The translations under genes were made by a program, and so were the position numbers. The notes under the pieces were generated by a model. The model searched no databases. It was not told the DNA's origin and saw only the letters and a program-made list of their open reading frames with translations. A stretch of DNA of 64,000 nt from Halichondria panicea. Taxonomy: Eukaryota; Porifera; Demospongiae; Suberitida; Halichondriidae. The stretch lies in contig NC_087384.1 of assembly GCF_963675165.1 (NCBI RefSeq), positions 6,007,182 through 6,071,181 of the forward strand, read 5' to 3'. This document shows, piece by piece, positions 989 through 51,531 of this stretch (positions are counted from its first letter, which is position 1; the number at the start of each line of letters is the position of its first letter).

Positions 989-3900
989 CACTCCGCTGGT
1001 TGCCCCCCGGTAGAGGGTGTAGATATGGTGTATGGCAGTCTCGGAGGAGAGCCAGGGGTGGGGCAGGATGTGGAACACATGGAAACTGTTGCCCTCGGTA
1101 CTAGCCGAGACCAGGAGGGTACCACTGGAGGGAGGAGGGGGGGCAGCTTTGAAGTGATGTAAATATGATTATAATTATTGCTGTAACAGTAAACTTAATG
1201 TACATTATAAGCTTCCATCATCGCCTCTCCCATTATTTGGTGGTGTTTGTTTTAGACATGTTAGTAGTTCACTCCTTTGATCCTAACCGTCAACACAAAA
1301 GTAATCTCACTCGTAAGTATGACACACAAAAACATCCAAGGAAGCATCAGAGAGATGCTTTAATAAGTCAAAAATCCATAATCGCATTTTTTTACACTAG
1401 AAATACCAGAGGGACCTACAATAACATAGTACAGTGGTGTAATGTTGATTAAAGGAATACCTTGAGTTGAATACCAGAGGACCTACATTGTATGGTGTAA
1501 TGTTGATACCTTGAGTTGAATACCAGAGGAACTACATTGTACATGTACAGTGGTGTAATGTTGATACCTTGAGTTGAATGCCAGAGCAGCTATGTGTACA
1601 CAAGGTCCAGTGTGGGCCACAAAATGAGCTATCACTCCACCACTCTCACGATCCAGCTCCTGAACTTTGAACTGGAGGCAACAAAAATAGAGTGTAACGT
1701 GTAAAACAAAGTATCGATCGACCTGTAAACCATATATGGCTGTATTGTAGAACTCCCTATGATTAATTGGGGCCTCAAACTTAAGTATTGAAACACATAC
1801 TCCATTCTCCTTTCAGAGGAGTAAGGGCAAGGCTACACTGTACCAGAGTACTCACCTCTTGTGTGTGTGTCTTGATAGTGTCCAGTACTGTGATGATGTT
1901 GGCACTGGTGGAGTCAGTGGTCTATGGTGTATTGTTAGTCAGTTGGATAGTTACTTGTACACATGCACACACGCACGCATAAACTCAACTGTACGCACAG
2001 CACATGTGTATAGAGTGTACACTAGTGGTGTGTGCCGTTGCTATAGTGATCTAGTCACCTGTTGATGAGTGTGCTCTGGAGACTCAGTGGAGCTTGGCTG
2101 AGTCTTTCCAGTCAGTCCAGAGATAGTATCAGCTGAGAGAGAGATACAACAATGGATTAGCTATGTAGCAATAGCTAGCACTCTAACCCCCTTCTCCCAC
2201 ACTCTCTCTGGCTATTTTTCCCTTCCCCACTATCTCCCTGTACTGTGATGAAATGAATCTCACACGAACTGGATTGGTCTCAATAGCCCCTCCCCCTCCT
2301 CTTGATGTTTGCAATGACCCCTACACTGTACATGTAGTGTGCACTCACTGAGAGCTGAGATGCCCTTCTTGACGTTCTTGAGCACGGTGGTGGCCACGGA
2401 GGGGGGCGTGGCATCTGACATACCCCCCACACTCTGGTGCTTAGACGACAGCTGTATAAAACGTAGAAAACATTGAATTTGGTTACTTGGCGTTTATTAA
2501 AATGTAGCCATGTGTAATAATATTGTTGTACGGGTGTACCTTGGTTTCTGAGAAGGCCAACCATCTGGTTCCCAGGGCAACAGGGTTGCACGGATACCCC
2601 ACGGAAGGGTAGCTGTCTACAAATAGAGAGAGTGTGATCGTATGCGATAGGTGTTTTGAAGGACTTACTTCGTATGACGTATTTGTTGTCTAGTGAACCA
2701 GCGTCCAACACAACCATCCTCTTCTGGAACACAATCACCACCACTCTGGGGAAAGAGCAAGCATTAGTCTTAGGATATTGAAGCATCTGGCTATACTGTA
2801 TTGAGGCCTGTACAGTTAGTCTCAATAGACAGGTGGTCTCTTTAGGGAGGTCATTATGTGAGCATTGTAGGGACAGTACTGAGTGGTCTCAATAGAGAGG
2901 TGGTCTCAATGGTGTGAGCATTGTAGTCATGTGCTGATTCTATGGTACCTCACCTTCTGTTGCAGTGCACATCAACAATGGGTCTAGTCTTAAAGACAAA
3001 CTTCTTGACAGTGTTGTCTCCTCCATTGATCCTCAAAGAGAGCAGCTGCAGTGTGGAGTAGGCCACCGTACTACCACTGTTGTGTCTGCATGGAGGGTGT
3101 GTGTGTGTGAATAACATTAGCTCTATTTTCAAGAATTCAATCCTCTCACCTCCCCTTCTTGACAACGGCCATGATGGGTCTTGCCTCAGGGAACTTGTCT
3201 GGTGTGACGCCCTCGTAGCTCTGGGGGGTGGGCAGTAGCTTGGCAACTCTCGTAGTCTCCCCCTCACCACACACACAGTACACTTCACGAGCATCGCCAC
3301 CGGGCTGTGAGGGAGGTAACAGAAATTATTATTCTAAGAATTCACATGATTTAGTGGCAAGCAATGATTTTGTAGATGACTTGTGGTTCCATAATCTTCA
3401 AGGAAGTATCAAATTTACGTAATTATGATACATGGGCAGAGTAAAATGGAGAGGGATAAAACTGTATGCCAATAACCACATACTAACCATCTGGTGCGTC
3501 TATTACTTCACCCACCGTGACCGTCCATACTGCGAACCCGTTGGCCAAGCCCAGTATCAGCAGTAGGGGATTCCCCCTCACACCGTCACCTAGCGACGCG
3601 TCATTAATGTCACATGACTCAAACCGCACCCACAGCACACGCTCTCTCTTATCATCTTTAGGTCCAGATACTGCCTGTGAGGGTACAGAAAGATAGGTAT
3701 AATACCCCAAAAATTGTCAACCTATCGTAACAATAACGATTTATAACTTACTTGTTAATGTAATCATCAGTCATAGTCATACACAGTCATTTACAAGGTG
3801 CGTGCGTGTGACTTACCTGCGGTACATAGTCTTGTAGAAAACCAATCACATTTTTCATTGTGCTTTGATCACTGTGTATACGAAGAAAAAGGTTGAACTC

Positions 3901-4071
3901 ACACAATTTTAATATGAACCACTCTCCCAGTGACCCTCACCTGGCTGGCTCTGGACTGACTACATTTCCACGTCTGTAGGAATTCTTCTTTCCTCTCTCT
4001 GACTCGGAAGACATGGTGGCTTTTCTATTCTCTCTCTTGATAAAGCTCCCAAGGGGTTTCACCTTCTTCAT
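989..4071 (-). CDS. BCAS3: BCAS3 homologue, 5' half only (copy 1)
   Basis: Minus-strand exons match the N-terminal WD40/beta-propeller half of BCAS3, which in mammals works with PHAF1 at phagophores and in cytoskeletal/transcriptional roles. Exons in transcript order (window coordinates): 3941-4014 or -4071, 3817-3862, 3516-3674, 3150-3304, 2954-3085, 2669-2745, 2540-2616, 2349-2451, 2059-2132, 1856-1921, 1568-1671, 989-1124. All junction phases agree and no exon has an internal stop. Recognisable BCAS3 features are LWVRFE, a VWTVT strand end, VDVHCNR, NPVALGTRWLAF and HILPHPW. The remaining exons would lie left of the window, so this is a partial view rather than a proven truncation. Start choice is open between Met codons at 4071 and 4014. 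It is divergent from the Death-domain gene at 4176. Confidence 0.88.
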
Positions 4072-4175
4072 ACATGTATGCTGAGTCAGCGATTTCTTCA
4101 TAATTATGGGCCACGCCCAACTAGACGTAATTTAACCCGTAATTTTTTATTTATAAACAAACGTCAAGGTACAAG
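4072..4175. promoter_or_regulatory. Probable bidirectional promoter, BCAS3 / Death-domain gene
   Basis: Only about 104 bp separate the furthest upstream BCAS3 start (minus) from the Met of the Death-domain gene (plus). The interval holds a GC-box-like GGGCCACGCCCAA and an AT-rich TTATTTATAAAC block. It is almost identical in the right-hand unit (30,275-30,378). Copy 3 lacks it and has a different 5' end. Promoter activity is inferred from spacing and conservation. Confidence 0.55.
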
Positions 4176-7100
4176 ATGGCTACAACGAATTTTGATACTC
4201 TGAAACAGAAGACTGGGGTAACAGACACCCAGCTAGACCAAAGAATTGAAGAAGATAAATTGTGGAGCCTGGCTGGTCTACTTGGCAGCTATGAAAAGTT
4301 TGTTAGAAGCCCAGTGTTTGGTCTCAATAATGCAGATGTAGAGGATCTGAAGGATTGTGCCTCCAAGCATGGAAATCAACAAGCCATGTATGAAGCTTTA
4401 AGGAAATGGGAAAACGTCATCCGTGACTTCACTTATCGGTCGTTGTTGAAGATTTTGATTAGTCTTCGTGAAGGAGCTTTGGCTGACCAAGTTTGTAGAA
4501 TTTGTGAGTTTAATATTTAATATCTACTTTCTGTGTTTCATCATTTCTTGTACTCCAGTCATCCAGACACAAGCCAGTGAGCCGAATAAAGAAGACGCTG
4601 TGTCCTTGTCATCTGCACCAGGTTAGTATAGCTCAGTATGAAGTTAAAGTTCTCATGCATATAAAAGGCGAAACTGTTTCTGTTCACCATTTTAAGATTC
4701 TAGCCATACTTTTAGGCTTTGCTAAGCTTTATTGGAGCTTATAAACCCAGCTCAGGAGCAACAACCTTAGAATCTGGGATATAGCAGCTTCAGTGCCGGA
4801 TGGGGGTGCTAAATCTGGGACAGTCCCGGCCATTCCGGGACAGTTGCCTTGGCACCTATGTATTAATCAGTTATAATTATATGCCAGTTGCAACAATGTG
4901 ATGTTCTTATACAGCACTGGCTACTGGGCACACTGTAGGATCATCTTCTCATCCAGTGAGTGCAGTTCTTCAACGACAGATGGACAAATATCAGCTCACT
5001 ACAGCCCAAGTCGACCATGAAATCCAGCAAAAAGACATACCATATTTGGCTGCTTACTGTGACAATGTGGAGATCTATGACGATGAGATGGAATTACGAC
5101 GTAGCAAGCAAGATAATCACCTAGCCATGATCAAGTACTTGAAAATCTGGAAAAGTAAGAAACTCTCACAAGCAACATTCAGGGCCCTTCTGGAGATGCT
5201 AATAAAGCTGGAGAAAGAGGCGATTACTGACGAAGTCTGTCAGTATATAAAGGTGAGTGTTTGTGTGTACGTCAAGCTATTTTGAATGGCACCAAACCTT
5301 ATCAATTGTATGGATGCATTGTACGTATGTCTGTCTAGCCCGTACTACACCAGAGAATCTGCCAGGGTCAAAAGACTGTTTCGCATTTGACATTAAAGTA
5401 AACAAAATATAGCTAGTATGAAATTTTAAAAATCAATGATTACCCTCGACAAACAAGCTGTAAGCGCGGGTATGTTATGATCTTTGAGACGCTTTTGAAA
5501 CGCATTACTTCAAGCTATTGATGTGCTTTCAGGCAATTCTTAGAGTTAGCATTACGTGTGTTAATTACTAATGCATTTGAGTCGAAGAACCTCTGCTACT
5601 ACACACTGCAATCAACATTGAGGGTAGTCGGCATAAAGTATGGGCGTGGTTGAGCATTCCTTATAATTGGTTGACAATAGATATATGCAAAGCAGGAGCA
5701 CATTACAGAAGCAGCGTCTTACCTCGGGAATCGCATCTCGTGCAAGTTTGCAAAGTAATTGGATATGCTCCTCTTTTAGAATTTTCTGTAACTCACCAAT
5801 GACTGTCTCTTCCATGATGTACCAACATTCATCAAAGATCTAGCTATTCATTTTAACTCTTTCTGGCTCACCCTAGCTCTCCTGCTGCTGCAGTACATAT
5901 AAAATCCATTCATAATGATATTCACAGGCTGACCGCGGTCTGTAATATGTACACAGTACTTACACACTTTTCTTATAAGGCAATGCGGCGTTTAGGAAAA
6001 CACACGAGATGCAATTTCCGAACCCATGCGGAGTTAGATGCTCCTTCTGTAATGTGCTCCTGGAAAAGCATGCATATACCATAATGTAGGAAACACTCAT
6101 GCAACCCCTCAACGTTCTTTGTTGATTAGTTTAATTGTGACTGAAGTTTCATTCAATACAGGAAATTCCCACCACATTTGTTGGAGAGGGATCACTTCGA
6201 GAGATGTCCGTGGCACGAGGGCAGGAACACATTACTGAACAAGCAGTTCTGTCACCTACCACAGAAGTAGATGCCCTACTATCAAGCAATGGATTGATGT
6301 ACAAAGACGTGAATAGGGAGTGCAGGGATGACCATATATTAGAGATTTCACAGCAGCTGGAACAATGGGAGCTAGTAGCAACACGGCTGGGATTAACCCT
6401 AGCTGAGATTGGAGCCATCAAATATAACAATCGGAGTATAGACATGATGAGATATAACACTCTTAAGAAATGGAAATCTAAGGCTCTACTCAGTGGAACA
6501 GCTACGTATCGAGTTCTACTACAAGCTTTGTTGGCTCTTAGCTGCAATGACTTAGCAAACCAAGTGTGCTCACTACTCAAGGAATCACTACGGGAATCAC
6601 TACTCAAACAAAGGCAACAGAGGAGGATATTCGACGATGCTCTAAGAGATGGCGCAGTCACTGTGAAAATAACTAATGCTCTAATTCAAGGAGAAGCGGG
6701 TGTTGGAAAAACATGCACCAAGCGCATTCTTTGTGATCAGGGCCGTCCGAGCTCTAGAGATAGCACTCCTCTCGCCGATATTTCTGTTCATGTTAGAGAT
6801 GTAACTGATGTCAAAATCCATTCTCAAAACAACAAATGGACAGAAGTGAATGAGGAAAAACTGCAAGACATTGTTGGAACTATGATTTCGATAGTTTGTA
6901 AAAATCGTTCGTTAAAGACATCAATCGATCAACAGTGGCAACACCGGAAAAAAGTACATTTCATTCCAGCTGATGATCTAGCTGGCAAACAACTACCACA
7001 GCCACTACCGGAACGAACAGTACCGAACCTATCTCTGAATGATGATGAACCAGAAACATTGCCACGGGCTGAATTTGAGTCACTGATTGATAATCTTCGG

Positions 7101-10100
7101 GATAAAGTAGCTGATTCACACCATCCAGGATCACAAGATGCACGAGAAATTCTAGGCTCCAACTGGATCTATTTAATCGACAGTGGAGGCCAGCCTCACT
7201 TCCACAATCTTCTACCTCATTTTGTGCATGGCATTAGCATTGCTTTGTTTACTCTGAAGCTTTCAGAACGATTGGACTCTCATTCTATGGTTGAGTATTA
7301 CGAACATGGCAAACTGATTTCGACTCCATACCGATCACCTCTTACAACTATTGATACCCTCAAGTGTCTCGTCCGCTCAATGCAGTCTCATACTATCGAT
7401 GGCGAAAAACCTACTCTTGTCATTGTAGGTACCTTTTTGGACGAGATCGAGAAATGTTCTGAAACTGTACAGGAAAAGAATGAGCGACTACTTAAAATTC
7501 TTTCACTAGAATTTACAGACCAGCTTTTCTTTTATAATGAAGCTGAAAACAATTTAATATTTGCTCTGAATGGAAAGGATCCAGGTCCTCATGAAGAAAC
7601 AATCGCTAAATTGATAAGATCTGTCATCGAAACTTCTCCTTCTAAAGTTATCAAAATGCCTATTTGGTGGTACGTGCTGGAGATATCGTTAAAAGAAATG
7701 TCAAGTCGTCTGAACAGAAAAGTGTTGAGCAAGCAAGAGTGTCTGGAAGTCGCAAAGCAAATACATATCGAAGAAGATGCACTTGTAGAGGCTTTGAAAT
7801 TCTTTCATGAACAACACATTTTTCACTACTATGTAGACATATTGCCTAATGTTGTCTTCACTAGCCCTCAAGTTCTCCTGGACAAGCTGACAGAGTTGGT
7901 CAAGGAAGCATACGATAAAAGGATTAAATCAACAACCACTACTGAACAGGCTCAAGTTGCGAAAGGAAAATGGCAGAAATTTCAAAATAATGGAATCATA
8001 ACACTGGAGTTTGTTGAATACTTTTCAAAGCACTACGTGGAAGGATTGTTTTCTCCACCCGACCTCCTCAAAATATTCATGAATCTTCTCATTCTAACAC
8101 CATTTTCGCCTACTGATTTCGAAATAGATTTCACATCACGTACAGCTCAGTACTTCATGCCTTCACTTTTGGATATGCTTCCACAAGACAAATTAATGGA
8201 ATATCGTGTTGTGTCTGTTTTAGCGAGTCCGTTGTTACTTAGATTCCCTAATGGTTGGCCACGTGCAGGAGTGTTTTGTTGCCTTCAAGTTTATCTGATT
8301 CGTCAGTTGGGTTGGAAGCTTCTGCTTATTAGGGGAAAGCCGAAACTAATTGCTCAGAATTGTGTGATGTTGTCTCCTCCAGGCAGTAGTTGCCGGGTTA
8401 CTCTGATCGACTCTTTTTCGATTGTTGAAGTACATGTCGAGGGAGACAAAGATGTTTGTTCTGCAATGTGTCCGACAATTCGAAATCAAATTGATACCGG
8501 AATACGTGCTTCTTGTCAATTACTTCGATACAGTGAGGAGCAACTACAGTTAGCTTTCTTTTGTCCTTGTACACTTTCTTCTTCACCACATTCTGAGGAA
8601 GTTCCTCATTTCCATGCTGCAATACTCTTGGAGGACGGCAATCAAAGATGCACTTTTGATGAGAGTATCACATCGAGGGTCCAGTCTGAAGAAATGATCT
8701 GGCTCCAAAATACAGGTGTGTAAGCATTATAATTGTATCTGCATAATTATAACACATCGTCTATGCTAATTATACAACAATGTGTATTTATTTCATCTTC
8801 CTATACAGCACCGGCTACTGGGCACACTGTAGGATCATCTTCTCAACCAGCGGGGACAGTTTTTCAACAGCTGATGGACAAATATCAGCTCAGTACTACT
8901 GCCCAAGCCAGTGAGCCGAAAAAAGAAGATCCTTCGTCTTCGTCACCTCCACCAGGTGTAGTAAATCAGCGTTTCTGTTCAGTATTCTAGCCGTAGTTCC
9001 AGGCTTGCTAAGCTTTATTTGGAGCTTATAGTAACCAGCTCAACCTTAGAATTCGGGATATGGAAAGCAGCTTCAGTGCTGGACGGGGATGCTAAATTGG
9101 GACGTACGGTCCCAGCTACATGTACAGTATAATTATAGCCTATTATATACATGTGTATATGCCAGTTGCAACAATGTCATGTTCTTATACAGCACCGGCT
9201 ACTGGGCACACTGTAGGATCATCTGCCCAACCAGTGAGTGCACGGCTGATGGACAAATATCAGCTCAGTACTACTGCCCAAGCCAGTGAGCCGAAAAAAG
9301 AAGATCCTTTGTCTTCCTTGCCTCCACCAGTACCAGGTGTAGTAAATCAGCATGGATGCATAAAGCTTTTCTGTTTAACGTTTTAATATTCTAGCCATAG
9401 TTCCAAGCTTCCTAAGAGGAGCTTATAGTAACCCAGCTACATATATGAAAGGTGAATAGCAGTTTCAGTGCCATACGGGGGTGCTAAATTGGGACAGTCC
9501 CGGCTACATGTATGTATTAAATATCGTATAGCGTGAAATTTTCAAGGGGCTTAATTTTCGTTGTTTTCGTGGGTTAACAATCCTACATGAAAATGAATTC
9601 CACAAAAATTCACTATAAAATTATTGTGAAGGCATGGCTTTCGGTAAGCTGTCCAACCCACAAGAGTGCCTCGAAAATTTCGCGCTATACGGTATAGGGC
9701 CTATTGTATATATGCCAGTTGTAACAATGTCATGTTCTCATACAGCATTGGCTACTGGGCACACTTCTGCTCAACCAGTGAGTACAGTTCTTCAACAGCT
9801 GATGGACAAATATCAGCTCACTAATTCACAAGTCAACCATGAAATCCAGCAAAAAGATGTATCATATTTGGCTGCTTACTTTGATAATGTGGAGCTCTAT
9901 GTCGATGCGATGGAATTATCATCTAGCGAGCAAAGTGATGTTTTGTTAAAAAGATTGGACGGTAACCACCTAGCCATGATCAAGTGCTTGAAAATCTGGA
10001 AAAGTAAGAAGCTCTCACAAGCGACATTCAGGGCCCTTCTTGAGATGTTAGTAAAGCTGAAGAAAGGGGAGATTGCTGACAACGTCTGTCATTACATAAA

Positions 10101-12116
10101 GGTGAGTGTTTGTGTGTGCCTAAATTTGTGCTTCGAGCTATTTTTACATCAATTGTGTGAGTGCACTGTATGTATGTCTAGCCCCTAGACTGCTTCGTGT
10201 TCGACATAGCTAGACTCGTAATTAGGCCTTACAACTGTAAAAATGTAGTTAACTAGTATGAAATTTAAAAATCAATGATACTCCTCGACGAACAAGCTGT
10301 AGGTGAGGGTATGAAAAATGTTGTGATCTTTGACCTTTTGGACTAAGTTAACGCTTTCGAAACGCATTACTTACAAGCATTTAATAACTTTAGTGCTGAT
10401 CACATGATCTCCAGCCAATCAGCTTATCTGAAAGTAGTCAGGTGACCATGGATTAAATAACTTAATCCACACTTAAGTGTGCTTTAAGTTGGTTTGTTAA
10501 TGCACACTTTTATCAAACAATCATAATACAAGCAGATTGAATCTGAATGTCATCATAATTATAATAATAATACAAGCAGATTGAATACGTACACAAGCAA
10601 AGCTGAAAAGTATTAGAAAGTTGAATGTTATTGTTTTGACTTGTTTCATGTGTACCGAATTGCTGACTTGACCATAGCATCACTTTTTCGTCTGGAGAAA
10701 TAGGCTCAGCTTGCTTCGAAGATGTACGTACCTGTACCTAAGCCAGATCCATATAATCGGTTCATCAAAGGTGCTTCGAATATCATAGCGTTCCAAAAGA
10801 GCAAACCAGATACTCATTGCCATATAGTTTGCGCACAAAGTTTCCCATCCAGTAAGCCAGATCAACTGGAGGCCTATCCAGTATATAGTGGGATCGGGAC
10901 TGTTGGTCAGCAGGAGAAATAAGTCGAGAACATGCCCAGTCAGTCCAGATAGCTTTAGATCGTATCTCCTTCTCCTTTGCATCAGTTACTGGATCTACAA
11001 ACCTACTAAAACTTGCTATTACGTCTAGCTAGCTAGCTAGCCACCAGCAACTGATTTAAAATGTAGCTAGATCTAGCTGCCACGAGGCTAGAGCTCACGT
11101 GACAGCACTAAATCCTTTAGAACATACCTAGCCAAGTCACGTGTTTTAATCTGATGCACTCGGATGGCCTCTCGGTTACGTAATGCACTCGGCTGCACCT
11201 CGAGCACCACGTTAACCTCGAGGCCATCCTCAGCACGCAGATTAATCTTGGCTAGGTGTGTTCTAAATAATACTTAAACTATTGATGTATTTTCAGGAAA
11301 TTCTTAGAGTTAGCATTGTGTGTGTTACGCATTTGAGTCGCAGAACCTCTGCTACTACACACACTACAAGAATCTTTGCAAAATCAAAGTTGAGGGTAGT
11401 CGGTAATATGGGCATAGTTAAGCATTCCGATTGATCACAGATAACACTAAGTAATGTTGCGATTCTATGCAAAGCGTATACACACTATAATGTATAATTT
11501 AGGGAACACTCATGCAACACCTCTGTTCTTTGTTCATTAGTGCTCAGCGAGATTGTGTATTTTGACTGATTCAATACAGGAAATTTCCACCACATCTGTT
11601 GGAGAGGGATCACTTCGAGAGATGTCTGTGGCACGAGGACATCATCACACTACTGAACAAGCAGTTCTGTCACCTACCACCGGCACCGAAGTAGTACGCC
11701 TCTCGAGAAAGCGATTAGTAAGAAGCGGAAGTGGGCGTGGGGACGAGGCTACAGAAATAGATGCCCTACTATCAAGCAATGGATTGACTTGCACAGACGG
11801 GAATAAGGAGTGCAAAGATGACCATATATTAAATGTTTCACTGAAGCTGGAACAATGGGAGCTAGTAGCAACGCGGCTGGGATTAACGTCAGCTGAGATT
11901 GAAGCCATCAAGGGTAACAATCAGACTGTAGAAATGATGAGATATAAAGCTCTGAAGAAATGGAAATCTAAGGCTCTATTCAGTGGAACAGCTACGTATC
12001 AAGTTCTACTGCAAGCTTTGTTGGCTCTTAGCTGCAATGACCAAGCCAAGCAAGTATGCTTACTACTCAAGAAATCACTAGAATGTCAACATAAAGTTCT
12101 TAAAATAGATAATTAG
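4176..12116 (+). CDS. Multi-Death-domain ROC-COR-like GTPase (copy 1, intact)
   Basis: Eight exons join in phase to a 1488-aa protein: 4176-4503, 4559-4621, 4915-5252, 6162-8715, 8809-8955, 9193-9336, 9746-10101, 11580-12116. Order: DD1 (about residues 1-109), Ser/Pro linker, DD2 (about 150-243), DD3 (about 279-385), a Ras-like ROC GTPase, a COR-like winged-helix region, two similar linkers (1094-1191), DD4 (1192-1310) and DD5 (about 1350-1480). GTPase motifs: P-loop GEAGVGKT at 420-427, switch-II DSGGQ at 583-587, and GTFLDE at 666-671 in the G4 position. DD2 and DD4 are one subtype, DD3 and DD5 another. Death domains and ROC-COR proteins are known in adaptor assembly, cell-death and innate-immune signalling; the role here is inferred. 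SANBR follows 180 bp downstream. Confidence 0.85.
5723..5815 (-). other. Possible antisense first coding exon (copy 1)
   Basis: Inside intron 3 of the Death-domain gene, the minus strand has a Met-initiated 31-codon frame (MEETVIGELQKILKEEHIQ at its start, helical and charged) ending exactly at a good donor, GAG then GTAAGACG. It recurs almost unchanged at 31,982-32,074. No partner exon was found. It may be a relic or chance. Confidence 0.25.
9523..9693. mobile_element. MITE-like element with CGTATAGCG termini (copy 1)
   Basis: An imperfect inverted repeat: the left end CGTATAGCGTGAAATTTTC pairs with the right end GAAAATTTCGCGCTATACG. The centre is AT-rich with no frame of note. It lies in the intron before the DD4 exon and is present at the same place in all three paralogues (35,792-35,970; 45,829-46,010), so it inserted before the duplications. 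A related family member is at 27,192-27,401 and a more distant one at 22,376-22,547. Confidence 0.65.
10385..11270. other. Copy-1-specific insertion in intron 7
   Basis: Copies 2 and 3 go directly from the conserved intron sequence (ACTTACAAGC) to the conserved ATTGATGTGTTTTCAG acceptor region. Copy 1 has about 880 bp extra. It contains a direct repeat of ACAAGCAGATTGAAT near 10,530 and 10,572, and a terminal-inverted-repeat hairpin at 11,117-11,266. Short frames on both strands at about 10,680-10,980 look non-coding. Confidence 0.55.
11117..11266. mobile_element. Hairpin MITE
   Basis: About 150 bp with termini TTAGAACATACCTAGCCAAG and CTTGGCTAGGTGTGTTCTAA, which are inverted copies with few mismatches. 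A second inner pair (GATGGCCTCTCG / CGAGGCCATC) would extend the hairpin. No coding capacity. Confidence 0.65.
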
Positions 12117-12296
12117 ACCCCAAAAAGTTATATTGTGTGTAATGTGTGTTTGTTTGTTTTGCTTAAATGTATTTTTATCATAAGCCAATATTCAATAAGG
12201 AAACGGTCAGCTATTGTAAAAGTCAAAAACTGTAAAACAAAAAGCATTGCAAATAGTGGGAGGGGCTACCTTGCACATCCATTCCCAGATCAGAGA
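12117..12296 (+). promoter_or_regulatory. SANBR upstream region
   Basis: A 180-bp interval between the Death-domain gene stop and the SANBR start. It contains AATAGTGGGAGGGGCTAC, which is kept upstream of all three SANBR copies and even in the degraded fourth trace near 56,925-56,945. An adjacent GGTCAGCTATTGTAAAAGTC block is also shared. The G-rich box is the best promoter-element candidate, by conservation only. Confidence 0.4.
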
Positions 12297-19620
<7,324 letters not shown>

Positions 19621-22245: not shown

Positions 22246-30274
<8,029 letters not shown>

Positions 30275-30378
30275 ACATGTATGCTGAGTCAGCGATTTCT
30301 TCATAATTATGGGCCACGCCCAACTAGACATAATTTAACCAGTAATTTTTTATTTATAAACAAACGTCAAGGTACAAG
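30275..30378. promoter_or_regulatory. Probable bidirectional promoter (copy 2)
   Basis: Nearly identical to 4072-4175, between the divergent BCAS3 and Death-domain gene starts, with the same GC-rich and TATTTATAAA-like blocks. Confidence 0.5.
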
Positions 30379-31981
30379 ATGGCTACAACGAATTTTGATA
30401 CTCTGAAACAGAAGACTGGGGTAACAGACACCCAGCTAGACCAAAGAATTGAAGAAGATAAATTGTGGAGCCTGGCTGGTCTACTTGGCAGCTATAAAAA
30501 GTTTGTTAGAAGCTCAGGGTTTGATCTCAATAATGCAGATGTAGAGGATCTGAAGGATTGTGCCTCCAAGCATGGCAATCAACAAGCCATGTATGAAGCT
30601 TTAAGGAAATGGGAAAACGTCATCCGTGACTTCACTTATCGGTCATTGTTGGAGATTTTGATTAGTCTTCGTGAAGGAGCTTTGGCTGACCAAGTTTGTA
30701 GAATTTGTGAGTTTAATATTTAATATCTATTTTCTGTGTTTCATCATTTCTTGTACTCCAGTCATCCAGACACAAGCCAGTGAGCCGAATAAAGAAGACG
30801 CTGTGTCCTTGTCACCTGCACCAGGTTAGTATAGCTCAGTATGAAGTTAAAGTTCTCATGCATATAAAAGGCGAAACGGTTTCTGTTCACCATTTTAAGA
30901 TTCTAGCCATACTTTTAGGCTTTGCTAAGCTTTATTGGAGCTTATAAACCCAGCTCAGGAGCAGCAACCTTAGAATCTGGGATATAGCAGCTTCAGTGCC
31001 AGATAGGGGTGCTAAATCTGGGACAGTCCCGGCCATTCCGGGACAGTTGCCTTGGCACCTATGTATTAATCAGTTATAATTATATGCCAGTTGCAACAAT
31101 GTTATGTTCTTATACACAGCATTGGCTACTGGGCACACTGTAGGATTATCTTCTAAACCAGTGAGGGCAGTTCTTCAACAGCTGATGGACAAATATCAGC
31201 TCACTACAGCCCAAGTCGACCATGAAATCCAGCGAACGGACTTACCAATTTTGGCTGCGTGCTTTGATGATGTGGAGCTCTATGTCGATGCTATGGAATT
31301 AACACCTGGCGAGCAAAGTGATGTTTTGTTAAAAAGATTGGAAAGTAACCACCTAGCCACGATCATGTGCTTGAAGATCTGGAAAATAAATAAGCGCTTA
31401 CAAGCAACATTCAGGGCCCTTCTGGAGATGCTAATAAAGCTGAAGAAATGGGCGATTGCTGAAAAAGTCTGCATAGTGAGTGTTTGTGTGTACGTCAAGC
31501 TATTTTGAATGGCACCAAACCTTATCAATTGTATGGATGCATTGTACGTATGGATGCATTGTATGTATGTCTGTCTAGCCCGTACTACACCAGAGGATCT
31601 GCCAGGGTCAAAAGACTGTTTCGCATTTGACATTAAAGTAAACAAAATATAGCTAGTATGAAATTTTAAAAATCAATGATTACCCTCGACAAACAAGCTG
31701 TAAGCGCGGGTATGAAAAAATGTTATGATCTTTGACACGCTTTTGTAACGCATTACTTACAAGCATTAATAATTATTGATGTGTTTTCAGGCAATTCTTA
31801 GAGTTAGCATTATGTGTGCTAATTAACTAACGCATTTGAGTCGAAGAACCTCTGCTACTACACACTGCAATCAACATTGAGGGTAGTCGGCATAAAGTAT
31901 GGGCGTGGTTGAGCATTCCTTATAATTGGTTGACAATAGATATATGCAAAGCAGGAGCACATTACAGAAGGAGCGTCTTAC

Positions 31982-32074
31982 CTCGGGAATCGCATCTCGT
32001 GCAAGTTTGCAAAGTAATTGGATATGCTCCTCTTTTAGAATTTTCTGTAACTCACCAATGACTGTCTCTTCCAT
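31982..32074 (-). other. Possible antisense first coding exon (copy 2)
   Basis: Duplicate of 5723-5815, with frame and donor (GAG, GTAAGACG) both preserved. No downstream exon identified. Confidence 0.25.
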
Positions 32075-35000
32075 GATGTACCAACATTCATCAAAGATCT
32101 AGCTATTCATTTTAACTCTTTCTGGCTCACCCTAGCTCTCCTGCTGCTGCAGTACATATAAAATCCATTCATAATGATATTCACAGGCTGACCGCGGTCT
32201 GTAATATGTACACAGTACTTACACACTTTTCTTATAAGGCAATGCGGCGTTTAGGAAAACACACGAGATGCAATTTCCGAACCCATGCGGAGTTAGATGC
32301 TCCTTCTGTAATGTGCTCCTGGAAAAGCATGCATATACCATAATGTAGGAAACACTCATGCAACCCCTCAACGTTCTTTGTTGATTAGTTTAATTGTGAC
32401 TGAAGTTTCATTCAATACAGGAAATTCCCACCACATTTGTTGGAGAGGGATCACTTCGAGAGATGTCCGTGGCACGAGGGCAGGAACACATTACTGAACA
32501 AGCAGTTCTGTCACCTACCACAGAAGTAGATGCCCTACTATCAAGCAATGGATTGATGTACAAAGACGTGAATAGGGAGTGCAGGGATGACCATATATTA
32601 GAGATTTCACAGCAGCTGGAACAATGGGAGCTAGTAGCAACACGGCTGGGATTAACCCTAGCTGAGATTGAAGCCATCAAATATAACAATCGGAGTATAG
32701 ACATGAGGAGATATAACACTCTTAAGAAATGGAAATCTAAGGCTCTACTCGGAACAGCTACGTATCGAGTTCTACTACAAGCTTTGTTGGCTCTTAGCTG
32801 CAATGACTTAGCAAACCAAGTGTGCTCACTACTCAAGGAATCACTACGGGAATCACTACTCAAACAATGGCAACAGAGGAAGATATTCGACGATGCTCTA
32901 AGAGATGGCGCAGTCACTGTGAAAATAACTAATGCTCTAATTCAAGGAGAAGCGGGTGTTGGAAAAACATGCACCAAGCGCATTCTTTGTGATCAGGACC
33001 GTCTGAGCTCTAGAGATAGCACTCCTCTCGCCGATATTTCTGTTCATGTTAGAGATGTAACTGATGTCAAAATCCATTCTCAAAACAACAAATGGACAGA
33101 GGTGAATGAGGAAAAACTGCAAGACATTGTTGGAACTATGATTTCGATAGTTTGTAAAAATCGTTCGTTAAAGACATCAATCGATCAACAGTGGCAACAC
33201 CAGAAAAAAGTACATTTCATTCCAGCTGATGATCTAGCTGGCAAACAACTACCACAGCCACTACCGGAACGAACAGTACCGAACCTATCTCTGAATGATG
33301 ATGAACCAGAAACATTGCCACGGGCTGAACTTGAGTCACTGATTGATAATCTTCGGGATAAAGTAGCTGATTCACACCATCCAGGATCACAAGATGCACG
33401 AGAAATTCTAGGCTCCAACTGGATCTATTTAATCGACAGTGGAGGCCAGCCTCACTTCCACAATCTTCTACCTCATTTTGTGCATGGCATTAGCATTGCT
33501 TTGTTTACTCTGAAGCTTTCAGAACGATTGGACTCTCATTCTATAGTTGAGTATTACGAACATGGCAAACTGATTTCGACTCCATACCGATCACCTCTTA
33601 CAACTATTGATACCCTCAAGTGTCTCGTCCGCTCAATGCAGTCTCATACTATCGATGGCGAAAAACCTACTGTTGTCATTGTAGGTACCTTTCTGGACGA
33701 GATCGAGAAATGTTCTGAAACTGTACAGGAAAAGAATGAGCGACTACTTAAAATTCTTTCACTAGAATTTACAGACCAGCTTTTCTTTTATAATGAAGCA
33801 GAAAACAATTTAATATTTGCTCTAAATGGAAAGGATCCAGGTCCTCATGAAGAAACAATCGCTAAATTGATAAGATCTGTCATCGAAACTTCTCCTTCTA
33901 AAGTTATCAAAATGCCTATTTGGTGGTACGTGCTGGAGATATCGTTAAAAGAAATGTCAAGTCGTCTGAACATAAAAGTGTTGAGCAAGCAAGAGTGTCT
34001 GGAAGTCGCAAAGCAAATACATATCGAAGAAGATGCACTTGTGGAGGCTTTGAAATTCTTTCACGAACAACATATTTTTCACTACTATGTAGACATCTTG
34101 CCTAACGTTGTCTTCACTAGCCCTCAAGTTCTCCTGGACAAGCTGACAGAATTGGTCAAAGAAGCGTATGATAAAAGGATTAAATCTACCACTACTGGAC
34201 AGGCTCAAGTTGCGAAAGGAAAATTGCAGAAATTTCAAAATAAGGGGATTATAATGCTAGAGTTTGTTGAACATTTTACTAAGCACTACGTGAAAGAATT
34301 GTTTTCTCCACCCGACCTCCTCAAATTATTTATGAGTCATCTCATTCTAACACCATTTTCGCCTACAGATTCTGAAATAGATTTCACATCACGTACGGCT
34401 CAATACTTCATGCCCTCACTTTTGGATATGCTTCCACAAGACAAATTAATGGAATATCGTGTTGTGTCTGTTTTAGCGAGTCCGTTGTTAATTAGATTCC
34501 CTAATGGTTGGCCACGTGCAGGAGTGTTTTGTTGCCTTCAAGTTTATCCTGATTCATCAGTTGGGTTGGAAGCTTCTGCTTTTTAGGGGAAATCCGAAAC
34601 TAATTGCTCAGAATTGTGTACTGTTGTCTCCTCCAGGCAGTAGTTGCCGGGTTACTCTGATCGACTCTTTTTCGATTGTTGAAATACACGTGAATGGAGG
34701 CAAAGATGTTTGTTCTGCAATGTGTCCAATAATTCGCAATCAAATTGATATCGGAATACGTGCTTCTTGTCAATTACTTCGATACAGTGAGGAGCAACTG
34801 CAGTTAGCTTTCTTTTGTCCTTGTACACTTTCTTCTTTATCACATTCTGAGGAGGTTCCTCATTTCCATGCTGCAATACTCTTGGAGGACGGCAATCAAA
34901 GATGCACTTTTGATGAGAGTATCATATCGGAGGTCCAGTCTGAAGAAATGATCTGGCTCCAAAATACAGGTGTGTAAGCATTATAATTGCACCTGCATAT

Positions 35001-35791
35001 AACACATCGTCTATGCTAATTATACAACAATGTGTATTTATTTCATGTTCTCATACGTGCAGCACCGGCTACTGGGCACACTGTAGGATCATCTTCTCAA
35101 CCAGTGGGGACAGTTTTTCAACAGCTGATGGGCAAATATCAGCTCAGTACTACTGCCCAAGCCAGTGAGCCGAAAAAAGAAGATCCTTCGTCTTCGTCAC
35201 CTCTACCAGGTGTAGTAAATCAGTATAGATGCGTTTCTGTTCAGTATTCTAGCCGTAGTTCCAGGCTTGCTAAGCTTTATTTGGAGCTTATAGTAACCAG
35301 CTCAACCTTAGAATTCGGGATATAGAAAGCAGCTTCAGTGCTGGACGGGGATGCTAAATTGGGACATACGTCCCAGCTACATGTACAGTATAATTATAGC
35401 CTATTATATACATGTATATGCCAGTTGCAACAATGTCATGTTCTTATACAGCACCGGCTACTGGGCACACGTAGGATCATCTGCCCAACCAGTGGGCACA
35501 CGGCTGATGGACACATGTCAGCTCAGTACTACTGCCCAAGCCAGTGAGCCGAAAAAAGAAGATCCTTTGTCTTCCTTGCCTCCACCAGTACCAGGTGTAG
35601 TAAATCAGCATTGATGCATAAAGCTTTTCTGTTTAACGTTTTAATATTCTAGCCATAGTTCCAATTTAAAGCTTCCTAACTTTATTGGAGCTTATAGTAA
35701 CCCAGCTACATATATGGAAGGTGAATAGCAGTTTCAGTGTCAGACGGGGGTGCTAAATTGGGACAGTCCCGGCTACATGTATGTATTAAAT

Positions 35792-35970
35792 ATCGTATAG
35801 CGTGAAATTTTCAAGGGGCTTAATTTTCGCTGTTTTTGTGGGTTAACAATCCTACATGAAAATGAATTCCACAAAAATTCGCTATAATGTGAAAAGATTA
35901 AAGGCGTGGCTTTCGGTAAGCTGTCCAACCCACAAGAGTGCCTCGAAAATTTCGCGCTATATATACGGTA
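35792..35970. mobile_element. MITE-like element (copy 2 of the intronic CGTATAGCG element)
   Basis: Orthologous in position to 9523-9693, before the DD4 exon, with the same inverted ends and a few extra bases (ATATAC) at the right end. Confidence 0.6.
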
Positions 35971-37731
35971 TAGGGCCTATTGTATATATGCCAGTTGTAA
36001 CAATGTCATGTTCTCATACAGCATTGGCTACTGGGCACACTTCTGCTCAACCAGCGAATGCAGTTCTTCAACAGTTGATGGACAAATATCAGCTCACTAC
36101 TTTCCAAATCGACCGTGAAATCCAGCAAAAAGACATATCATATTTGGCTGCCTGGTTTGACAATGTGGAGTACTATGTCGATGCGATGGAATTATCACCT
36201 GGTGAACAAAGCAATGCCCGGAAAACAGAAAGTAACCACCTAGCCATGATCATGTGTTTGAAAATCTGGAAAAGAAAGAAGCTCTCACAAGCGACATTCA
36301 GGGCCCTTCTCGAGATGTTGGTAAAGCTGAAGAAAGGGGAGATTGCTGACAACGTCTGTCATTACATAAAGGTGAGTGTTTGTGTGCATGTGCCTAAATT
36401 TGTACTTCGAGCCAAACCTTACATCAATTGTGTGAGTGCACTGTATGTATGTCTAGCCCCTAGACTGTTTCGTGTTCGACATAGCTAGACTCGTAATTAG
36501 GCCTTACAACTGTAAAAATGTAGTTAACTAGTATGAAATTTAAAAATCAATAATACCCCTCGACGAACAAGCTGTAGGTGAGGGTATGAAAAATGTTGTG
36601 ATCTTTGACCTTTTGGACTAAGTTAACGCTTTCAAACGCATTACTTACAAGCTTAATTACTATTGATGTGTTTTCAGGCAATTCTTAGAGTTAGCATTGT
36701 GTGTGTTTATTAACTAACGCATTATTTTTGAGTCGAGGAACCTCTGCTACTACACACACTACAAGAATCTTTGCAAAATCAAAAATCAAAGTTGAGGGTA
36801 GTTGGCATAAAATTTATGGGCATAGTTAAGCATTCCTTATAATTGATTGACCACAGATAACACTGTGAGTAATGTTGCGATTCCATGTAAAGCGTACACA
36901 CCATAATGTATAATTTAGGGAACACTCATGCAACACCTCTGTTCTTTGTTCATTAGTGCTCAGCGAGATTGTGTATTTTGACTGTATTATCTAATTCAAT
37001 ACAGGAAATTCCCACCACATCTGTTGAAGAGGGATCACTTCGAGGGATTTCTGTGACACGAGGGCAGCAACACATTACTGAACAAGCAGTTCTGTCACCT
37101 ACCACCGAAGTAGTAGGCCTCTCGAGAAAGCGATTAGTAAGAAGCGGAAGTGGGCGTGGGGACGAGGCTACAGAAGTAGATGCCCTACTATCAAGCAATG
37201 GATTGACCTGCACAGACGGGAATAAGGAGTGCAAAGATGACCATATATTAAATATTTCAGAGCAGCTGGAAAAGTGTGAGCTAGTAGCAACGCGGCTGGG
37301 ATTAACGCCAGCTGAGATTGAAGCCATCGAATATAATAATCGGACCATAGAAATGATGAGATATAAAACTCTTAAGAAATGGAAATGTAAGGCTCTACTC
37401 AGTGGAACAGCTACATATCGAGTTCTACTACAAGCTTTGTTGGATTGTGGCTGCAATGACCAAGCAAAGCAAGTGTGCTCACTGCTCAAGGAATCACTAG
37501 AATGTCAACATAAAGTTATTAAAATAGATAATTAGACTCCAAAACGTTATATTGTGTGTTGTGTGTGTTTGTTTGTTTTGCTTAAAATTAATGTTGTAAG
37601 CCAATATTCAATAAGGAAAAGGTCAGCTATTGTAAAAGTCAAAAACTGTAAAAAAAAATCGTAAACAAAAAAGCATTGCAAATAGTGGGAGGGGCTACCT
37701 TGCAAAAATAATACCATTCCCAGATCAGAGA

Positions 37732-40514
<2,783 letters not shown>

Positions 40515-41422: not shown

Positions 41423-44400
41423 ATGAGTAGTGATACAGACAGAGCTAGAGCTAGAGGGTACCCGTATGTGAAGTAAGTTGATCAGTCAATCACAAAGTGC
41501 TCCAGCATTTAAAGCATAATTATTGTTATTTCTCTATAGCCCAAACTCTCTTAAAAATGTGTACACAGCTCTATTTAAAGTAGCTGATCAATGGTTTAAT
41601 CTTGGCCTTCAACTTGACGTTGACTCAAATGACCTAAAAAGGATTCACAGCACGCTCCAAAACAATACAGAGAAACTGCGTGAGATGCTCACTGTGAGGT
41701 TAGCCCAAGGAGATTTGACTTGGGATCAAATTACAGAGGCTCTAGAAAATCGTACTATTGGCCAACAAGTTATTGCCAATGAAATAAGAAGTAAACATAT
41801 CACACCAGTAGAGAGAGGTAAATAGTGCAACTATACTACAATGTATATATACAAATCAATGGTGCAAGCTGCGCTGTGCTAATGTGCCTCTTGGGAAGAG
41901 GTCATTGTATTTTGTATAATTATCACGAATCACGAAATAAATGTTTGCATTTGCAATAATTAAACCACAATTTAGAGCAACAAGTAACGTAGCTTAATGA
42001 TAAAAGTTAAATAGTGCAAACAGATGATGCTATAAAAGATTCTGAAAAGACTAGAGCAGCCTTCAGTTTGCAAATCCACGAATTAAAATCCAAGAGAGCT
42101 AGAAAGAAGCCTGCATGTAGAATAATTACATGCATGTTAGTTTTAGTTCATAGGGTTATATCTCACAGAGGGTACATACATAGTGATGAATTATGTGATC
42201 TCAAATTAACGGACAGTCCCGGGACAGTTGCCTTTGCACCTATGTATATATACAAGAGTTCATTATATCAGATAGCTATTCGTTACAACAATGTCATGAT
42301 CTTATACAGCACCGGCTACTGGGCACACTGTAGGATCATCGGCTCAATTTTTTCAGCAGCTGATGGATAAATATCAGCTCACTACTGCCCAAATCGATCG
42401 TGAAATCCAACAGGAAGATGTACCAATTTTGGCTGCTTACTTTGATAATGTGGATCACTATATTGATGCGATGGAATTATCACGTAGCGAGCGAAGTGAT
42501 GTTCGGTTGAAAGGTAACCACCACCTAGCTATGATCGAGTGTTTGAAAATCTGGAGAAGTAAGAACCCCTCACAAGCGACATTCAGGGCCCTTCTGGATA
42601 TGCTAGTTAAGCTGAAGAAATGGGCGATTGCTGCCCGAGTCTGTCAGTACTTAAAGGTGGGGGTTTTGTGTGTACCATAATTTGTGTACGTCAAGCTATT
42701 TTGAATTAGCACCAATTAAACCTTACTAACGTTGTGATTTATAATTAATGCCCATAGTCTTATCGTGTATGTGTGAGTGCACTCTGTGTGTTGACACATT
42801 ATTGTGCACTCGATTGCATATTGGGAACTGATAAGCACTCACTTAGTAACCAACAGTTCAGGTTTGCTTCATTCCATGATGTTTTTCCTCATAATAATTT
42901 ATTATAGGAAGCACAGCTGCAGGAAACGCTAAACCAGCAATTACAAAATAAGAAAACATTCGACGATGCTCTAAGAGATGGAATAGTAACTGTGAAAATA
43001 ACTAATGCTCTAATTCAAGGAGAAGCAGGTGTTGGAAAAACATGTACCAAGCGCATTCTTTGTAATCAGGGCCCTGCCAGCTCTAGAGATAGCACTCCTC
43101 TTGCTGATATTTCTGTTCATGTTAGAGATGTAACTGATGTCAAGGTCCATTCTCAAAACAAAAAATGGAAGGAAGTAAATGAGGAAAAACTACAAGACAT
43201 TGTTCAAGCTATGATTTCAGGCGTAATTAGAGAAATGCAAAGAAAAAATCCCCCAATACACGAAAATGTAGCAACAATAATTGAAGATCCAGCTGGTACT
43301 AGCGAACCGAGTCAAAATCCAACTCTACCAGAATTGTTAGAGAATACTGAAAAATCTACCACAGCATTGCCACAGGCTGAACTGGAGTCACTGATTGATA
43401 ATCTTCGTGATAAAGTAGTTGATTCACGTCATCCAAGCTCACAAGATGCACAGGAAATTCTAGGCTCCAACTGGATCTATTTTATCGACAGTGGTGGCCA
43501 GCCTCACTTTCACAATCTTTTACCACATTTTGTACATGGCATTAGCATTGCTTTGTTTACTCTGAAGCTTTCTGAACGATTGGACTCTCATTCTATAGTT
43601 GAGTATTACGAAAACGACAAACTGATTTCAACTCCATACCAATCACCTCTTACAACTATTGATACCCTCAAGTGTCTCGTCCGCTCAATGCAATCTCATA
43701 CTATCAATGGCGAAAAACCTACTCTTGTCATTGTAGGTACCTTTCTGGACGAAACAAAGAAAAGTTCTGAAACTGTACAAGAAAAGAATGAACGTCTACT
43801 TAAAAATTTTTCGCTAGAATTTACAGACCAGCTTGTCTTCTATAATGAAGCTGAGAACAAATTAATATTTTCTCTGAATGGAAAGGATCCAGGTGCTCAT
43901 GAAGAAAGAATTGCTGAAATGATCAGATCTGTCGTCGAAGATTCTCCTTCTAAAGTTATTGAAATGCCAATTCGATGGTACGTGCTGGAGATATCGTTAA
44001 AAGAAATGTCAAGTCGTCTGAACAGAAAAGTGTTGAGCAAGCAACAGTGTCTGGAAGTTGCAAAGAAAATACATATCGAAGAAGATGCACTTGTGGAGGC
44101 TTTGAAATTCTTTCACGAACAACATATTTTTCACTACTATGTAGATATCTTGCCTAACGTTGTCTTCACTAGCCCTCAAGTTCTCCTGGACAAGCTGACA
44201 GAATTGGTCAAGGAAGCATACGATAAAAGGATTAAATCAACCACTACTGGACAGGCTCAAGTTTCCAAAGGAAAATGGCAGAAATTTCAAAATAAGGGAA
44301 TTATAACGCTAGAGTTTGTTAAATACTTTTCAAAGCACTACGTGGAAGGGTTGTTTTCTCCACCCGACCTCCTCAAAATATTCATGAGTCATCTCATTCT

Positions 44401-47400
44401 AACACCATTTTCGCCTACATATTCTGAAATAGATTTCACATCACGTACGGCTCAGTACTTCATGCCCTCACTTTTGGATATGCTTCCACAAGACAAATTA
44501 ATGGAATATCGTGTTGTGTCTGTTTTAGCGAGTCCGTTGTTAATTAGATTCCCTAATGGTTGGCCACGTGCAGGAGTGTTTTGTTGCCTTCAAGTTTATC
44601 TGATTCATCAGTTGGGTTGGAAGCTTCTGCTTTTTAGGGGAAATCCGAAACTAATTGCTCAGAATTGTGTAATGTTGTCTCCTCCAGGCAGTAGTTGCCG
44701 GGTTACTCTGATCGACTCTTTTTCGATTGTTGAAGTACACGTGAATGGAGGCAAAGATGTTTGTTCTGCAATGTGTCCAATAATTTGCAATCAAATTGAA
44801 ACCGGAATACGTGCTTCTTGTCGAACACTTCGATACAGTGAGGATCAGCTGCAGTTAGCTTTTTTCTGTCCTTGTACACTTTCTTCTTTACCACATTCTG
44901 CGGAGGTTTCTCGTTTCCATGCCGCAGTACTCTTGAAGGACGGCAATCTAAGATGCACTTTTGATGAGAGTATCATATCGGAGGTCCAGTCTGAAGAAAT
45001 GATCTGGCTCCAAAATACAGGTGTGTAAGCATTATAATTGTATCTGCATATAACACATCGTCTATGCTAATTATACAACAATGTGTATTTATTTCATGTT
45101 CTTATACATGCAGCACCGGCTACTGGGCACACTGTAGGATCATCTTCTCAACCAGTGGGCACAGTTTTTCAACAGCTGATGGACAAATATCAGCTCAGTA
45201 CTACTGCCCAAGCCAGTGAGCCGAAAAAAGAAGATCCTTCGTCTTCGTCACCTCCACCAGGTGTAGTAAATCAGTATGGATGCGTTTCTGTTCAGTATTC
45301 TAGCCGCAGGCTTGCTAAGCTTTATTTGGAGCTTATAGTAACCAGCTCAACCTTAGAATTCGGGATATGGAAGGCAGCTTCAGTGCTGGGCGGGGATGCT
45401 AAATTGGGACGTACGGTCCCAGCTACATGTACAGTATAATTATAGCCTATTATATACATGTGTGTATGCCAGTTGCAACAATGTCCTGTTCTTATACAGC
45501 ACCGGCTACTGGGCACACTGTAGGATCATCTGCCCAACCAGTGAGTGCACGGCTGATGGACAAATATCAGCTCAGTACTACTGCCCAAGCCAGTGAGCCG
45601 AAAAAAGAAGATCCTTTGTCTTCCTTGCCTCCACCAGGTGTAGTAAATCAGCATGGATGCATAAAGCTTTTCTGTTTAACGTTTTAATATTCTAGCCGTA
45701 GTTCCAAGCTTCCTAACTTTATTGGAGCTTATAGTAACCCAGCTACATATATGAAAGGTGAATAGCAGTTTCAGTGCCATACGGGGGTGCTAAATTGGGA
45801 CAGTCCCGGCTACATGTATGTATTAAATATCGTATAGCGTGAAATTTTCAAGGGGCTTAATTTTCGCTGTTTTCGTGGGTTAACAATCCTACATAAAAAA
45901 TGAATTCCACAAAAATTCGCTATAATGTGAAAAGATTAAAGGCGTGGCTTTCGGTAAGCTGTCCAACCCACAAGAGTGCCTTGAAAATTTCGCGCTATAT
46001 ATACGGTATAGGGCCTATTGTATATATGCCAGTTGTAACAATGTCATGTTCTCATACAGCATTGGCTACTGGGCACACTTCTGCTCAATCAGCGAATGCA
46101 GTTCTTCAACAGCTGATGGACAAATATCAGCTCACTAATTCACAAGTCAACCATGAAATCCTGCAAAAAGACGTGCCATATTTGGCTGCCTGGTTTGATA
46201 ATGTGGAGCTCTATGTCGATGCGATGGAATTATCACCTAGCGAGCAAAGTGATGTTTTGATGAAAAAATTGGACAGTAACCACCTAGCCATGATCAAGTG
46301 CTTGAATATCTGGAAAAGAAGGAAGCTTTCACAAGCGACATTCAGGGCCCTTCTGGAGATGTTAGTAAAGCTGAAGAAAGAGGCGATTGCTGACGACATC
46401 TGTCAGTATATAAAGGTGAGTGTTTGCGTGTGCCTGAATTTGTACGTCGAGCTATTTTACCAAACCTTACATTAATTGTGTGAGTGCACTGTATGTCTGT
46501 CTAGCCCCTAGACTGTTTCGTGTTCGACTCGTAATTATGTTTAGTGATACGCGAGGTAGTTCTCAACTGTGCCCTTGATGGCCTTACAACTGGTAGCTTA
46601 GTATGAACCCTAAAACTCAGTGATACCCCTCGACAAACAAGCTGTAAGTGAGGGTATGAAAAATGTTGTGATCTTTGGACTAAGTTAACGCTTTTGAAAC
46701 GCATACTTACAAGCATTAATAACCTTCAATGGTGTTTTCAGGCAATTCTTGAGGTTAGCATTGTGTGAGTAACTAACGCATTTGAGTCGAAGAACCTCTG
46801 CTACTAGCTATACACACTACAAGAATCTTTGCAAAATCAAAAAGTTAAGGGCTGTGAGTAATGTTGCGATTCCACGCGTACACACCATAATGTACACACC
46901 ATAATGTATAATTTAGGGTACACTCATGCAACACCAGTTCATTAGTGCTCAGAGATTGTGTATTTTGACTGTATTATCTGAACTTTCATTCAATACAGGA
47001 AATTCCCACCACATCTGTTGAAGAGGGAGAGATGCAATCACTTCGAGGGATATCCATGCCGCGAGGGCAGGAACACACTACTGAACAAGCAGTTCCGTCA
47101 CATACCACCGAAGTAGCAGGCCTCTCGAGAAAGCGATTAGTAAGGAGCGGAAGTGGGCGTGGGGACGAGGCTACAAAAGTAGATGCCCTACTATCAAGCA
47201 ATGGATTGACTTGCACAGACGGGAATAAGGAGTGCAAAGATGACCATATATTAAATATTTCAATGCAGCTGGAACAATGGGAGCTAGTAGCAACGTGGCT
47301 AGGATTAACGGCAGCTGAGAGAGAAGCCATCAAGGGTAACAATCAGACCATAGAAATGATGAGATATAACACTCTTAAGAAATGGAAATCTAAGGCTCTA

Positions 47401-47538: not shown

Positions 47539-47689
47539 ACCCCAACATTATTATGTGCGTGTTTATTAATTTTCATTAACCCATATTCAATAAGGAAAAG
47601 GTCAGCTATTGTAAAAGTCAAAAACTGTAAAAAAGTACATTGCAAATAGTGGGAGGGGCTACCTTGCAAATTAATTCCCAGATTGGAGA

Positions 47690-51531
<3,842 letters not shown>

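Follow-up and report, generated by a model that had tools for sequence, protein, structure and literature searches.

A putative ROCO-type gene with Death-like exons on both sides of its GTPase in the sponge Halichondria panicea

What lies near the start of the 64,000-nucleotide stretch of Halichondria panicea DNA that we analysed (the window; contig NC_087384.1 of assembly GCF_963675165.1, positions 6,007,182 to 6,071,181, forward strand)? Between window positions 4176 and 12116 of the plus strand we find one joined gene model of eight exons, combining Death modules with a GTPase, which we call copy 1. All seven introns are of the GT-AG type, and splicing in silico yields a single open frame of 1488 amino acids whose sole stop is the terminal one. 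The gene opens with the first of five Death modules (DD1; exon 1, 4176-4503, ending in a GT donor), followed by a linker (exon 2, 4559-4621) that is identical in length and phase in two further copies, copy 2 and L051, and by DD2 (exon 3, 4915-5252). DD3 and the GTPase share exon 4 (6162-8715). Two chimeric linkers come next (exon 5, 8809-8955; exon 6, 9193-9336), both made up of nucleotides 1-96 of a DD2-type exon and nucleotides 12-63 of exon 2; the second measures 138 nucleotides in copy 3 and is one base short in copy 2. DD4 (exon 7, 9746-10101) and DD5 with the stop codon (exon 8, 11580-12116) close the gene. The exon phases run 0-1, 1-1, 1-0, 0-1, 1-1, 1-1, 1-0 and 0-stop, in agreement with the preliminary description of this DNA, which had given the linkers as 1-1, the DD2/DD4 exon as 1-0 and the terminal exons as starting at 0. 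As the exons are cut in matching phases, modules could be gained or lost without breaking the frame; exons 1-2-3-8, for instance, join in frame to 421 amino acids. Two more copies lie downstream on the plus strand: copy 2 (30379-37535), broken by a frameshift late in its GTPase exon and by the base lost from linker 2, and copy 3, which is without DD3 and, from its DD2-like exon to its end (42310-47538), encodes 1212 amino acids with the terminal stop as the only one.

The Pfam Death model matches all five Death exons of copy 1, two over its curated cut-off of 22.6 bits (DD3, 26.2 bits, E=8.8e-6; DD5, 33.3 bits, E=5.3e-8) and three below it (DD1, E=5.2e-4; DD2, E=6.1e-4; DD4, E=1e-3). Although sub-threshold, these three are counted as Death-like because they are related by sequence or profile to the other modules: a profile built from six window exons of the DD2/DD4 type matches one built from ten exons of the DD3/DD5 type and their relatives (Prob 96.5, E=8.4e-10), and DD1 finds DD4 by tblastn (E=3e-9). 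DD2 is of the DD4 type and DD3 of the DD5 type, with agreeing start phases. On this comparative basis we accept all five exons as Death-like, and the five Death domains claimed for the locus stand in that sense. Searching the sequences of the PDB with profile A1 returned four RIPK1 Death entries (E 0.013-0.025), aligned on DD3; the same search with profile A6 gave no match. Death frames also occur apart from this GTPase family: one more of the DD3/DD5 type lies at window positions 56332-56808 (33.1 bits, over the cut-off), with no family GTPase exon found beside it, and 15 tandem DD1-type frames, spaced by about 2-3 kb, occupy G000 C8:6714334-6755482, where no GTPase of the family of copy 1 is listed.

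How is the GTPase of exon 4 to be classified? Searched directly, the exon comes close to refuting the proposed Roc and COR fold, as Pfam yields Roc at E=0.021, below cut-off, and no COR match. The family profile, by contrast, speaks for it. Our alignment A2 comprises 29 members, namely copies 1 and 3 of the window (L017, L018) and 27 of the 30 loci fetched, the frameshifted copy 2 (L020) being excluded. Against the relatives L013 and L014, both over the COR-A cut-off of 35.3 bits, its profile reaches Prob 99.9 and E=8.8e-34 over 468 columns spanning G3, G4 and the COR part. A G1 motif is present in the family, all four fixed residues of a DxGGQ motif are invariant throughout A2, and G4 reads GTHKD in 11 members and GTFxD in the remaining 18, THxD being a usual Roc form. 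The distance from G1 to G3 is 129-179 residues in the 16 members matching both patterns, compared with 40 in the LRRK-like L009 and about 40 in canonical Roc domains; Galpha proteins, too, hold an insert in this region. Two loci with COR-A scores below the cut-off, L049 (32.5 bits) and L050 (25.9 bits), have a likewise long stretch of 188 and 186 residues. The preliminary assignment to ROC-COR is thereby upheld by way of the relatives, and we regard exon 4 as encoding a putative divergent ROC-COR GTPase, with COR recognizable only through them. No kinase match at E<=1 was obtained with Pfam in exons 1, 3, 4, 7 and 8; NACHT, LRR and AIG1 likewise gave no match at E<=1 in the Pfam-scanned exons, and TRADD-N was not found there. 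The best entry in a PDB sequence search with A2 was HslU (E=0.031), with Rab-like G domains next and no ROCO protein among the 25 entries listed. Elsewhere in the genome, the ROC-COR frame of L050 is followed by a Death match and then by repeats which we take to be ankyrin-like, and a frame open over 1269 amino acids with two COR-A matches (L016, G000 C10:4436983-4439409; three more places or variants on C10 are alike) is possibly a doubled ROC-COR.

By sequence similarity, copy 1 belongs to a large gene family of at least 63 scored loci in the genome: searching with the copy 3 protein gave 322 candidates, of which 63 were scored, all at E=5e-108 or better. Searches for relatives in prokaryote genomes and in viral contigs returned 54 and 23 pattern matches, respectively, with none confirmed. 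The family provides the means to assess the critical junction of the gene model, that between exon 4 and the C-terminal Death exons. The best donor is in phase 1 in 26 of the 29 members, which as relatives are not independent trials, and lies soon after an invariant tryptophan codon, at a distance of 16-28 nucleotides counted from the first base of that codon. Donor scores are 8-9 of 9 in 23 of the 29, against controls inside the same frames of which none of 580 exceeds 7 and 35 reach it; the three members outside the 26 have a phase-0 site as their best donor, scoring 5 or 6. The junction is further favoured by the paralogue L047 (C8:5.78 Mb), in which GTPase, DD4 and DD5 follow each other in the phases of copy 1 without linkers, and by L048, in which the GTPase precedes a single Death exon with a phase-1 acceptor read by eye; neither has a Death match in the examined stretch upstream of the GTPase. 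A phase-1 acceptor also precedes the downstream Death frame in L026, L027 and L036, a weak test, because the filter is loose and also lets through acceptors in other phases there; for L023, which has stops in its frame, the only acceptor found was in phase 0.

The neighbourhood of the GTPase loci was surveyed with 330 of at least 489 Death rows, those on the ten contigs with GTPase loci; its counts are lower bounds. Within 6 kb on the same strand, a Death match lies 3' of at least 22 of the 63 loci and 5' of at least 4, and the matches listed include no case on the opposite strand; within 3 kb the counts are at least 16 and at least 3. Death matches on both sides are confined, again among those listed, to the three copies of the window. 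Splicing of exon 4 to the C-terminal Death exons is thus the favoured interpretation, with four comparative tests in its favour, one of them weak. A Death domain C-terminal to COR, a feature of the DAPK1 group of ROCO proteins, is supported by both the gene model and the comparison of paralogues. A single cluster, G000 C12:1.04-2.08 Mb, holds about 31 of 148 listed Pfam Death rows, three of them with a COR-A match about 3 kb upstream.

The reading we prefer, at a probability of roughly 60%, is that copy 1 is a divergent ROCO-type gene, built from a ROC-COR exon with its phase-1 donor and from C-terminal Death exons, and elaborated by N-terminal Death modules and linkers. Judged by the paralogues, the core would be one large ROC-COR exon with a conserved phase-1 donor at its end and, in many members, C-terminal Death exons; the window copies would have elaborated it by a DD2-DD3 pair before the GTPase (copies 1 and 2), plus DD1 and the linkers. 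RocCOR proteins dimerize, mainly via COR, in a state that depends on the nucleotide in the bacterial C. tepidum protein (PMC6337361). By extension from such ROCO biology, the nucleotide state of Roc could set the monomer/dimer state of the copy 1 protein through COR. A dimer would present ten Death domains, and these, if they behave as Death domains generally do, might nucleate a homotypic assembly and recruit Death-domain partners, while retention of the intron after exon 4 would yield a product that lacks DD4 and DD5. On this reading the protein would be made and bind GTP, its switch would gather Death domains into an assembly, and it might serve as a signalling scaffold and have some role in immunity or cell death. 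Provided that the joined protein exists, it would be a ROCO switch with Death domains on both flanks and a testable case of how Death signalling is diversified in an animal by way of a GTPase that is not NACHT.

Several observations weigh against this reading. In addition to the sub-threshold direct match of exon 4, Roc was found at E<=0.1 in 10 of the 29 members of A2 (best 8.4e-4) and COR-A in a single one (E=0.044), and the A2 profile has a weak match, in the COR part, to two ROCO proteins of LRRK-like type encoded in this genome (Prob 9.5, E=0.0034). AlphaFold models were unusable, with a predicted local distance difference test score (pLDDT) of 31 for the GTPase exon, modelled from the three window copies, and of 56 for DD4, modelled from six window exons; Foldseek with the latter listed 43 matches, none at E<=0.001 and none described as a Death domain. 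For 41 of the 63 GTPase loci, no 3' Death match is among those listed. The array has at least four copies, and two of them are broken, copy 2 and L051, the latter having lost the middle of its GTPase. Finally, the C-terminal half bears weak or no sign of constraint: the ratio of nonsynonymous to synonymous substitution rates (dN/dS) between copies 1 and 3 is 0.85 (0.58-1.46), which does not exclude neutrality, and that of DD5 versus L047 is 0.87 (0.57-1.43), likewise compatible with neutrality, and 0.60 (0.37-0.97).

Could the locus give rise to two products? A DD1-DD2-DD3-GTPase protein would then terminate shortly behind exon 4, leaving the C-terminal half with the linkers, DD4 and DD5 as a separate or unused unit. 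With the intron retained, a stop indeed follows the exon 4 donor after two codons, L047 and L048 likewise stop soon after theirs, and the dN/dS of 0.85 fits a half that is not part of the protein. We consider this unlikely, however, since exon 5 begins behind an acceptor at phase 1 and no first exon was identified for a separate unit, since the phase-1 donor recurs across the family, since L047 and L048 keep the order and phase of GTPase and Death exons, and since DD4 appears to be constrained, with a dN/dS versus L047 of 0.35 (0.19-0.60) for copy 1 and 0.46 (0.27-0.77) for copy 3. Alternatively, the array might be decaying, with a two-sided Death layout that recombination produced incidentally and that encodes no functional protein. 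The two broken copies and the near-neutral C-terminal half would agree with this, as would the homogenized block of linkers and their introns (8716-9745 versus 45021-46059), in which copies 1 and 3 diverge by 0-3.7%, compared with 10% in the GTPase exon and 8-19% in most flanking stretches; this low divergence points to probable recent gene conversion. Such decay is nonetheless improbable, as the frames of copies 1 and 3 stay open for 1488 and 1212 amino acids and, besides DD4, the GTPase exon seems to be constrained (dN/dS 0.42, 0.32-0.54, between copies 1 and 3; 0.43, 0.33-0.55, versus L047). The identity of the linkers was also considered as a sign of constraint and rejected, their introns being about as alike. 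Between copies 1 and 3, the exons of the C-terminal half differ by three indels, none of them out of frame. In introns and flank there are 28 indels, 22 of which have a length not divisible by three; the GTPase exon has two such indels among five, with both frames open. That exon 4 encodes a P-loop NTPase of another class, STAND or a different GTPase, joined to Death domains is most improbable, for the weak Pfam matches to nSTAND3, NPHP3_N and AAA models and the long G1-G3 stretch that suggest it are opposed by the lack of NACHT, AIG1 and LRR matches at E<=1 in the scanned exons, by the profile match across G3, G4 and COR to COR-A-positive relatives, and by the equally long stretch in L049 and L050.

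Returning to the ROCO-type reading, how new would such a gene be? In the ROCO proteins of the DAPK1 group, a Death domain stands at the C-terminus (PMC6337361), and copy 1 resembles them as a putative animal ROC-COR gene with C-terminal Death exons and no LRR match in the exons scanned. It differs by its several Death modules, some of them before the GTPase, by the long G1-G3 stretch and by the lack of a kinase match in the scanned exons, and is for this last reason not filed as DAPK1. Brown-algal ROCO genes offer a precedent for a ROCO core with phase-matched, shuffling exon modules (PMC11378527); there, LRR exons of phase 2 are shuffled and splice variants have been observed, whereas the modules of copy 1 are phase-1 and phase-0 Death and linker exons, known from DNA alone. 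Large expansions with N-terminal Death-like domains are described for the Death/TRADD-N proteins of the sponge Amphimedon (PMC8195603), which have one to three such domains and a variable C-terminus; copy 1 has a putative ROC-COR GTPase as its core and, in the exons scanned, no TRADD-N match. Similarly, sponge DEATH-NACHT-LRR genes combine a nucleotide switch with a Death domain in many copies, and a figure legend names COR among the domains (PMC12909245), whereas NACHT and LRR were not found in the scanned exons of copy 1. A literature search covering titles, abstract openings and few subscription papers named no sponge ROC-COR-Death family and no ROCO protein flanked by Death domains on both sides. 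Thus, of the preliminary interpretation, the five Death-like modules, the ROC-COR-type GTPase, the phases and the gain and loss of modules are retained, while the proposal of an undescribed system is dropped, because the ROC-COR-Death layout, that of the DAPK1 group, and ROCO exon shuffling are already published. We regard copy 1 as a variant within a known kind. A more far-reaching view, which we hold to be doubtful, would see a large undescribed class of NLR-like proteins with ROC-COR in place of NACHT; its phase-1 site would act as a socket at which recombination swaps C-terminal modules, Death or others, and alternative splicing might produce Death-only decoys.

The array itself turns over quickly and displays stages of module birth. 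Linkers after the GTPase number two in the window copies, one in L051 and none in L047, and DD3 is present or absent, in keeping with the earlier claim that modules are added and lost among copies; the linkers hold the frame in copies 1, 3 and L051. At the joint of the chimeric linkers, CAAG is common to both sources, and the intron between the linkers resembles intron 2; such chimeras would arise from a tandem duplication with its start in one exon and its end in the following one. In copies 1 and 2, the DD2-DD3 pair before the GTPase has the types and phases of the C-terminal DD4-DD5 pair. Within exon 4, the part homologous to the DD5 exon extends up to nucleotide 429 and that homologous to copy 3's GTPase exon from nucleotide 468 on, with a gap of 39 nucleotides; most economically, the fused DD3-GTPase exon may have originated from a deletion in the tandem array by which the last Death exon of one copy came to adjoin the GTPase exon of the following copy. 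The DD2 exon of copy 2 was considered as broken, which was rejected, the exon being in phase. No DD1-type exon was found in copy 3. A Death-like exon at 41540-41817 on the plus strand, upstream of copy 3 and different in type, scores below the Pfam Death cut-off (E=0.0068); since it ends in phase 1 it could join the DD2-like exon, and its phase and position suggest that it is part of copy 3.

Some further traces of duplication surround these copies. The unit at 2819-10389 recurs at 29022-36661 with 94.6% identity, and a downstream gene was duplicated along with the array, its three copies (window positions 11273-13782, 36652-38621 and 46732-49162) being 88-89% alike. In L051, the truncated GTPase frame (2707-3621) contains an in-frame repeat of about 27 residues several times between G1 and G3.

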